DNA from: Mesostigma viride
Lineage: Eukaryota; Streptophyta; Mesostigmatophyceae; Mesostigmatales; Mesostigmataceae
Length of the DNA stretch: 64,000 nucleotides
Reading direction: 5' to 3'
NCBI GenBank assembly: GCA_009746045.1
Contig: RPFO01000079.1
Coordinates: 1,506,785 to 1,570,784, forward strand
Position 1 is the stretch's first letter. The number at the start of each line of letters is the position of its first letter. A model generated the notes under the pieces. That model was not told the origin of the DNA, made no database searches, and saw nothing but the letters and a program-made list of their open reading frames with translations. A program made the position numbers and the translations under genes. Shown here one piece after another: positions 36,101 to 62,830 of this stretch.

Positions 36101-39100
36101 TGGCGCAGTGCAGGACCTGGTCCTTGTCACCCTGTCAACGGTGAAAATAGCAGGATGCACGAGGGGGTGGCCATGCCGTCCTTTGAGAAAATCTCCCGCC
36201 ATACTCGGTCGGTGTCTGAATGGCTCCCTCACGCCAGCTCGCTTCCTTGTGATTGCCTGCCTTACCCGCGCATGTTTTACGCACTAGTGCCCAGCAAAGT
36301 GTCGTCTCCTGTTCATGATGACCTCCGATGCCACCGATCGTCCTTTCTTCCCCCCCCTTTTTTTAAAAATGACCATCCCCATGCCATCAGCTGCTCACAA
36401 TGCTGTCCAGTCCAGTTCTATTGACAATCGACCTATTGATATCACGTGTCACGCCGTCCATCCTTGAATGCTATCGCCTCTTGTCCCTGCTTTCTCCACT
36501 CCCCCTGTTCCACACCACCCTGCACCGATCCCCGCCCCATGCAGGGTGGGTCACGGCCCTGAGCGCGGGTACATCCTCCGAGGCATCGCACGCCTTCTAC
36601 TTCTTCACCATCAGCATGGAGCTGACCGAAGAGGGCCACGGTATGTGTGCCAGTATAAAACAGCATAGCTACGTTCTTATGTGCTCGCTAGCATGCATCA
36701 AGTAATGTAGGGGAGTTGCTGGTACAACCAGTGCACCGAGGAGGGACACAGTATGGGTGTTATCATTAGTAGATGCATCGAGTCTGGCCGGGGAGTTGCT
36801 GGTATAACCCGCTGTTTTATAAGCACGCCGCCCTGCCCCGAGAGGTCGGCGCTGTCGCTGCTGGCCATCCGTTTCGTCCTTGTGATAAGCCCAGCGTTAT
36901 GCTGGAGAGCCACGTGTAGGCACCCGTGGTATGGTTTCGTGCTGTGCAACCCTTAGCGACTTTTGTGTTGAGCATCGGACCTAATGGCCTTTGGGGTGGT
37001 GTCCATGATTGGAGGCTCAGCGCGTTTCATCCATTTTGCTGTGCCTTGTTGTACCACTATGACGACGACTACTACTACTGCCACCACCACCACCACCACC
37101 ACCACCATCACCACCACCACCACCACCACCACCACTCCTCCTCCTCCTCCTTCTCCTCCTCCTCCTCCTCCTCCTCCTCCTCCTCCTCCTCCTCCTCCTC
37201 CTCCTCCTCCTCCTCCTCCTCCTCCTCCTCCTCCTCCTCCTCCTCCTCCTCCTCCTCCTCCTCCTCCTCCTCCTCCTCCTCCTCCTCCTCCTCCTCCTCC
37301 TCCTCCTCCTCCTCCTCCTCCTCCTCCTCCTCCTCCTCCTGTTATGCTACGATGTATTCCTACTCATACCCCACTACTATGACGACTTTCCACTACTATT
37401 GTTGATGTCGTGTGAGAGTGTTGTCCGCCTATCTCTGCTTGTCACACATCACCTTCACATTTATCACAACGGGCTGCCCAGCATGCCACCGTGCTCGTCG
37501 CCATGATCCGTCCCTGCATTCCCTGCGTGGTCTGATCCTGGTTGCCGTTCCTGCCACTCGCTGTTGCAACTGGCATCTGCATTCTGCGGCTGAGTTCTGC
37601 AACCGCCCACATGCTGGGCATGTTGGTGGATGCTGCTGGATGGCATGCTGATGTTGGGCATGCTGGTGGATGCTGTCCTCCAGATGGCTGGCAGCTGCAG
37701 GTGGGAGGGGTTCTACTGTGGACCGGCGTTTGTGTGTTTGCGTGGGAATTCACGTGCTTTCATCGTGCGGCCTTTTTGCTTTCATGATGGCGCGTCCGTG
37801 TGCCCTTATGTGCACAAACCTGCGTGCGCGCAGAGCACATGGAGGAGGTGGTGTCTACCCCTGACCTGCATGCTGCGTGTGTGCGTGCTTGCGGCTGCCC
37901 CTGTGTCCATGGGAGCAGTGCACATGGAGGAGGTCGTGTCCTTTGTCTTCCAGTACATCGCCATCGTGAAGAGAGCAGGCGTGCAGCAGTGGCTGTTTGA
38001 CGAGGTGCGTGGGGGGGAAGAGGAGAAGAAGGGGAGTGGGAAGGGAGGAGGCGCGGTGCGTGGGGGGAAGAGGAGAAGAAGGGGAGTGGGAAGGGAGGAG
38101 GCGCGCCAATGCGGTGTTCATACCTGGGTGTTCAACCACCATGTTCATGTGTCCGCAGTGTCCGCAGTGTACTTCTGCCATGTCTTAGGAGTATCCCGTG
38201 TAGATAGTTGCCCTCAATATTGGCCTATCAGTCCTTGCGTCCTGCGACTCTATGTGGGCCATGGCATGTGGAGGCGGCACGCAGTATACGGGAACAAGCA
38301 TTCAGACAGGTGGCGTGTGAAGTGGGTGCATCTGGGGGGAAAGCCCTGTGGCTCCGCTGTCACATGTGGTGGCTCAATCGCTTGGCTGGTTTCAACGCCA
38401 TGCGCGCTGTGCTTATGCTAACGCATGCCACGTGGCCATCAACAACCCATGTAGCGTTAGCGATGCCCTTGGGGTTTGTGCTGTGGGTTTTGCCACAGCA
38501 TGCACGGCTTGCTCATTGTGTTATGTCTACGCTTGCTGATTGCATTGATGTTTTCGTCCTCGCTGGGTGCTCAGGGCACTGCGCTCATTTCCTGTGGCAT
38601 TTATGCTCTCAAGTTTCATCCCATTGCTGCGTGTGTCGGCGTGTCCTGTCCAGGTCAAAGAAGTGAGCGAGATGAAGTTCCATTTTCGGGACAAAATTCC
38701 TCCCTTCACCTACGTGGGCACGCTGGCGCGCGCCATGCAGGTGGGCTGTCATTTCACATTTGTCCGTGGCAACGCTGGCCATGGGTCTGGTGGACTTTGA
38801 CACATCCCCTGCCCCTTCGATTTGAAGTGGGAACTAAAGGCCGTGAGCCTTGTAAGAAGATTTGTGAAGGGTGGAGTTTGGGGGGGAAGGGGGGTCGGAA
38901 AAACAGCCCTGATTGGTTCCAGCTCCTGCCATGGCTCTTTTTTGTCCCTCTTGTTCATGTTCACAACAGGCAGAGTTTGTCTGTCTGTCTGATCGCGCTA
39001 ACAATTGCTCAAGTAGTTAAGGAAGAGTTTGTCTGTCTGTCTGATCGCGCTAACAAGTGCTCAAGTAGTTAAGGAAGAGTTTGTCTGTCTGTCTGATCGC

Positions 39101-62830: not shown

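Follow-up and report, generated by a model that had tools for sequence, protein, structure and literature searches.

Exon ends recur in the introns of an M16 metalloprotease gene

In Mesostigma viride, the ends of many exons recur together with their splice donors as direct copies in the introns immediately downstream, and the starts of some exons recur in the introns immediately upstream. Among the genes that we sampled, roughly three donors in ten and one acceptor in six are echoed in this way, mostly over no more than about 30–40 exonic bases and at rates beyond those that our simulations of random tandem duplication with exon conservation gave. We tentatively propose that duplication in this species is targeted to junctions, splice junctions being its preferred sites and a route by which introns lengthen. 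The starting point was a window of 64,000 nucleotides (contig RPFO01000079.1, positions 1,506,785 to 1,570,784), to which the coordinates of this gene refer. It contains an insulysin-like M16 metalloprotease gene of 24 exons at 24166..62830 of the forward strand (exon 1, 24166-24315; exon 24, 62390-62830), which joins into a single open frame of 1047 aa. The product aligned to insulin-degrading enzyme with an E value of 1e-219, and the 24-exon model was 100% identical over all 1047 aa to the annotated M. viride protein jgi/Mesvir1/26796. Its exon numbering agrees with that of a preliminary description of the window, which had reported copies of the preceding exon end in introns 10, 11, 13, 14, 16, 20, 21 and 23.

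We defined a donor segment as 28 bases (20 exonic and 8 intronic), recorded its best ungapped match in up to 500 bases of the following intron, and searched each M16 intron with the 22 other donor segments of the same gene as a cross control. Six of the eight introns (10, 13, 14, 16, 20 and 23) were clear, with own scores of 15–21 against cross scores reaching at most 8–11. The remaining two were weaker and failed this comparison: introns 11 and 21 both had an own score of 10, against cross maxima of 11 and 14, yet tandem units are present in both, of about 51 and 54 bases respectively. At a score of at least 13, 6/23 donors matched their own intron, compared with 1/506 cross pairs (a figure also obtained at a score of at least 12), and label permutation reached the observed mean in 0 of 20,000 trials. 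The exact copies that had been named are present: ATGGTCAAGGTGAGG lies at 40744 in exon 14 and again at 40924, GTGCCGCTCGAGGTG at 60258 at the end of exon 23 and again at 60476 (3 bases from the approximate 60473 first given), and CCACGGTGAGGCAC at 48823 at the end of exon 20 and again at 48982. Under a dinucleotide model each is expected at most 0.0005 times in 64 kb.

All echoes in this gene are on the forward strand. Exon 10 (36545..36640) is followed at +110 by a copy of its last 16 bases and donor (36735..36759; own score 16, cross maximum 8). Exon 13 (39519..39622) is followed by degenerate copies of GGTGGACCGCGTACGGTG at 39640..39905, with exonic parts ending at 39654, 39736, 39760, 39836 and 39902. 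The end of exon 14 (40650..40752) and its donor recur in nine degenerate copies at 40795..41075 (+52, +80, +121, +140, +180, +212, +249, +285 and +317). For exon 16 (43442..43631) the echoes span 43690..43792, comprising the last 26 bases plus intron start at +84 and a further partial copy at +161, and for exon 20 (48559..48827) the exon end and donor are copied at +71 and +159 (48873..48995). The end of exon 23 (60147..60269) and its donor recur at +66, +138, +218 and +413 (60319..60683), with a unit of about 66 bases. At the donors of exons 11 and 21, where the own score does not exceed the cross maximum, the tandem units begin about 4 bases inside the exon (two units found by TRF at 38004..38105, and units at 49967..50033, respectively). 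At the cut-offs used there are 9 copies in intron 14, 4–5 in intron 13 and 3–4 in intron 23. Copies make up about 0.3 kb of intron 14 (1.35 kb long) and about 0.28 kb of intron 13 (1.03 kb). The six exon ends with strong echoes can be aligned to insulin-degrading enzyme with no gaps, so the exon is the source and the intron copy is derived.

Exon starts are echoed as well. The start of exon 5, with its AG, is found 98 bases upstream (28459..28504, exon copy from 28475; score 35), that of exon 11, also with AG, 85 bases upstream (37818..37863, exon copy from 37834; score 23), and that of exon 14 in two degenerate copies (40379..40524, exon copies from 40395 and 40495; scores 14 and 15). Matches before exon 20 were rejected as acceptor echoes, being CCCA simple repeat only. 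Between the two occurrences of the exon 5 start there is a short run of telomere-like CCCTAAA (28497-28563).

The M16 introns also hold very long simple arrays, of TCCC (60784-62023), ACACCCACACCA (45844-46384), CTC (37135-37340) and CCCA (48331-48556). Separately, a 28-bp unit with the donor-like GGTAAGAAAG is repeated about 300 times over 50326-58714 in intron 21, giving hundreds of potential donors.

Junction echoes occur in other genes

The M16 gene had been picked for being striking; the kinesin genes form a less biased, small set (19 donors). A kinesin-domain search gave 129 exon matches, from which five compact genes (20 matches, 19.3 kb) were chosen by exon density before any search for echoes. 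Their splice sites were placed with a simple scoring model and checked by frame and domain match, and the donor of the first L035 exon was excluded. At a score of at least 13, 6/19 kinesin donors matched their own intron, compared with 0/342 cross pairs, and for acceptors the counts were 3/17 and 1/272. Outside the M16 gene, exon ancestry was judged by domain match only.

Predicted exons from 250 kb elsewhere, a sample of random stretches with few real genes and many retroelement frames, showed echoes at 7/45 donors (cross 0.8%) and 3/41 acceptors (cross <1%). Measured against non-coding points the donor excess here was weak, at 7/45 versus 12.9% unmasked (p 0.36) and 4/40 versus 3.4% masked (p 0.046). 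An RBBP5/SWD1-like gene has four 118-bp copies of an exon end and donor (L019_L020 joined, 16261-16880, minus strand). Its four donors are spaced at 118 bp and have most of 40 exonic and 24 intronic bases in common, one copy matching at 64/64, and the reading frame, as read from the sequence, is free of stops at the first of the four only. A search for the annotated RBBP5-like protein returned relatives, with no Mesostigma entry among the best 120 of 479. Such an array would be natural material for studying how the spliceosome chooses among like donors.

Two other stretches are recorded here as observations in their own right. The 3.4 kb sampled from L002 (C2011, 1,488,356 bases) reads as bacterial, with 33% GC, dense frames and an intronless 420-codon M16 frame. 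Mesostigma carries a rickettsial symbiont, and C2011 may be the chromosome of an intracellular bacterium that was retained in the assembly. In L011, positions 1-9156 form a 3052-codon open frame in a stretch of 66% GC, and by eye it resembles a peptide synthetase in its condensation and AMP-binding domains.

Copies are direct, tandem and of differing age

Orientation was scored at 13 with the M16 gene pooled with 17 kinesin exons. Donor echoes were found in direct orientation downstream in 12/40 cases, inverted in 0/40 and in the upstream intron in 0/34; acceptor echoes were direct upstream in 6/34, inverted in 0/34 and downstream in 0/40. Every copy found in this test therefore adjoins its own junction, on the intron side and in direct orientation. 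The preliminary description had dealt with donors only; it was right about these and missed the acceptors.

The whole unit repeats end to end in 10/20 cases, which identifies these as tandem duplications across the junction. They comprise the RBBP5-like gene (118-bp unit, four copies, 67 exonic bases), kinesin L037 donor 1055 (83–88 bp, four copies, 28 exonic bases), L034 donor 1300 (70 bp), L009_L010 (82 bp), L032_L033 (90 bp) and M16 exons 11, 14, 16, 21 and 23. In the other ten only part of a unit matches: M16 exons 10, 13 and 20, L034:536, L034:2281, L035:1474, L037:2406, L037:4568, L015_L016 and a lipase. Partial matches of this kind are what old events would be expected to leave, the alternative being patch-like copies. 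Units are mostly 35–150 bp with an exonic part of typically 4–40 bases; in two cases among the predicted exons the copy takes in 49 and 67 exonic bases. Tandem duplication across the junction, as first suggested from the M16 gene, is thus recurrent in several genes as direct units.

Events of different age had also been suggested, and the copies agree with this: some at L034 donor 1300 are identical across the scored 28 bases, and the exonic part of the copies in the M16 arrays has diverged from the exon by 15–34%. In that exonic part, identity between original and copy exceeded identity between copies in 4/4 M16 arrays (0.75/0.67, 0.71/0.59, 0.66/0.56 and 0.85/0.71), and in the intronic part it did not do so in 3 of 4. 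Judged from these alignments, the pattern is as would be expected if the exon acts as a conserved master.

The excess is centred on splice junctions

We examined position with 24-base windows, counted at a score of 12 or more in 34–35 introns with a DUST mask only. Windows scored at 41% of donors, at 35% of positions −10 and 15% of positions −20, at 0/34 of −30 and at 1/34 of −40; inside the intron the figures were 18% at +10 and 12–15% from +20 to +40. The rate in intron interiors was 36% when points were pooled, 4% when arrays (at least six copies, or periods of 6 or less) were masked and 9% when each intron was counted once. The pooled rate reaches 36% because a few huge arrays fill the interior points. 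Our interior baseline is per intron or masked, a plain version being swamped by the array of 8.4 kb in intron 21. With a common set of 31 introns and single windows, 14 scored at the donor, 12 at −10, 5 at −20, 0 at −30 and 4–5 at +20 to +40, whereas random interior points gave a mean of 2.8 and the fraction of 50,000 draws reaching 14 or 12 was 0.00000. The donor rate in these introns is 5.0 times the interior rate. The earlier proposal that the process is centred on splice sites is borne out by these numbers, with 14/31 donors against 9% of interiors and 0/31 at −30. It had been offered together with a comparison of repeats near donors and elsewhere in introns; across 35 introns the junction excess holds in this comparison with equal intron weights or with arrays masked, and it fails if unmasked points are pooled.

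A simple reading of these data is that random tandem duplication occurs everywhere and is visible at junctions since conserved exons keep old copies recognizable. The M16 gene is indeed full of tandem arrays (38% of its intron bases, by TRF), exon–copy identity is higher than copy–copy identity, and the pooled, unmasked interior is repeated as often as donors are (36% versus 35–41%). We nevertheless consider this reading improbable. We simulated random tandem duplication with a frozen exon and a drifting intron, using single events, one substitution rate and no selection on the copy. The simulated junction rate was 1.3–1.8 times the interior rate, or 3.3 times with an old burst, compared with 5.0 times observed, and echoes 30 bases into the exon persisted at 0.8–2 times the interior rate, where the introns show 0/31. 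When copies with more than 30 exonic bases were forbidden, the junction rate was 0.5–1.3 times the interior rate. Recent, near-identical copies are present at junctions too. Because the simulation stays below 5.0 times and is wrong at −30, random duplication with preservation does not fit, and exon-anchored re-duplication or junction-targeted damage is therefore needed; the same two observations stand against exon conservation alone.

Junction-targeted damage would make the splice junction a mutational hot spot, at which transcription-linked lesions (pausing, or R-loops on a G-rich intron start) are repaired by short template switches with breakpoints some tens of bases or less from it. In favour of a hot spot, the peak at the junction is higher than random placement combined with exon conservation would yield. 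The placement of units points this way too: their exonic share averaged 0.29 in 20 cases, below that of a uniform phase (p 0.0004), and units with 42 or more exonic bases numbered 3 in those 20 cases, compared with 10.6 expected (p 0.0002). For this test we fixed registers and unit lengths manually on the best match and took the exonic share from the aligner; a 15-case version with hand-set values led to the same conclusion. The first 150 intron bases are also G-rich (skew 0.28). However, introns with echoes were only marginally more G-skewed (p 0.07), and duplication coverage of the first 150 intron bases was not clearly above that of the interior (0.18 versus 0.12 in 24 introns, both directions, p 0.08); in the last 150 bases it was 0.03, low as expected near the branch point. 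TRF arrays started at M16 donors no more often than by chance (2 versus 1.3 expected), and copies occur at acceptors too. On balance we judge a hot spot to be unlikely.

The explanation that we think probable is that tandem duplications cross the junction, that their intronic copies decay while the exon half is conserved, and that homology anchored in the exon permits re-duplication. Short tandem duplications would repeatedly have struck exon–intron borders in M. viride, a typical event copying the last 4–40 exon bases together with the donor and part of the intron into the intron that follows, with the mirror image at acceptors. Because the original splice site would stay in use, the protein would be unchanged and the intron longer. 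The intronic copy would decay neutrally, and since selection on the protein preserves the exon half and the copy alone decays, the two would long remain alike. With one partner of the pair hardly decaying, the homology at the junction could last and allow slippage or unequal exchange to duplicate it again, as in an exon-anchored minisatellite, unlike purely intronic duplications, which would lose their homology. Selection may remove long exonic copies, since their echo donor would become a real competitor. We infer that a ratchet of re-duplication, together with selection against long exonic copies, shapes these junctions. Counting against this explanation are the two predicted-exon cases with 49 and 67 exonic bases, the single window that scored at −40, and the weak donor excess over non-coding points among the predicted exons.

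Echo donors show no sign of upkeep

Another possibility is that selection keeps the copies as decoy or back-up donors with a role in modulating splicing. Several carry a strong donor, with AAG|GTGAGG intact in 4/9 copies of the exon 14 end. We measured donor retention in copies found by their exonic bases alone, because a search with donor bases would be biased towards kept donors; this gave 36 copies from 47 sites, a number that includes chance or shifted matches at about 0.09 expected per site. These copies gave no sign of upkeep of echo donors, as GT was kept in 20/36, no better than flanking bases (retention 0.75 at +1 and 0.67 at +2, with 0.58–0.92 for neighbours from −6 to +6). In the M16 gene, 19/22 listed echo donors would, if used, introduce one or more stop codons, those of exon 11 at +51 and exon 14 at +52 and +80 being stop-free, and the annotated protein model fits the original donors and ignores the echoes. 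A role as selected decoys is therefore very unlikely, although some echo donors may be used in alternative splicing, as the preliminary description had suggested.

Intron growth and comparison with known systems

That introns lengthen at their junctions is supported by these data. Intron growth is usually ascribed to transposons and to slippage within the intron; here the splice junction itself takes part, and growth at this site leaves copies of the exon edge of differing age. For gene finders this is a warning, as exon-like ends with good donors occur inside introns.

The preliminary description had further linked the echoes to duplication of AGGT-type junctions as a route to both the growth and the birth of introns. 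Growth fits, as the arrays lengthen introns; birth is not supported. Intron gain by tandem duplication of AGGT-bearing exon segments is a model established in other organisms, as described in the accessible part of PMC3443670, but comparison of the 5' with the 3' junction of each intron showed no likeness beyond that of shuffled pairs in 23 introns (p 0.12 locally and 0.19 in register). Very old births would leave no trace in this comparison, and we give the idea that these introns were born in this way hardly any credence. Terminal direct repeats of the Rogers and Bendich type likewise showed no excess over shuffled pairs, in a test that covers repeats of the lengths that its scoring favours.

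The published Mesostigma assembly comprises 441.8 Mb with a mean intron of 1142 bp and long introns containing 30.1% repeats, and the accessible text of that paper contains nothing on junction duplications (PMC6947507). In the open-licence literature we recognized no earlier report of donor-spanning duplications as a genome-wide pattern. The closest relatives, as far as the accessible parts of the papers describe them, each share some features with the junction echoes. In a potato RdRp gene, a tandem duplication across the intron 1/exon 2 border made a new intron (PMC4974935). As in Mesostigma, the duplication spans an exon–intron border and puts an exonic segment into an intron; however, it concerns one gene and a new intron, whereas in Mesostigma several genes are affected, mostly at donors, and existing introns are lengthened. 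The AGGT model (PMC3443670) shares local tandem duplication that includes splice-site words, but it duplicates exonic sequence and leaves 5' and 3' junctions alike, which those of Mesostigma are not. Direct repeats near splice sites (PMC11782384) are similarly short, up to 30 bp, and direct; they pair the 5' with the 3' border, whereas the partner in Mesostigma belongs to the same border, lies within a few hundred bases and recurs up to nine times. Introners (PMC9860276) also affect many introns of one genome, but they are dispersed and create introns, whereas the Mesostigma repeats are local, with a different sequence at each junction. Matches between different junctions at a score of 13 were rare in the sampled genes to which these counts apply (1/506 in the M16 gene and 0/342 in the kinesin genes). 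Intronic minisatellites consist of tandem units that are tens of bases long and vary among copies, and the junction echoes resemble them in both respects. Unlike in such minisatellites, the first unit in Mesostigma includes a conserved exon end and a working splice site.
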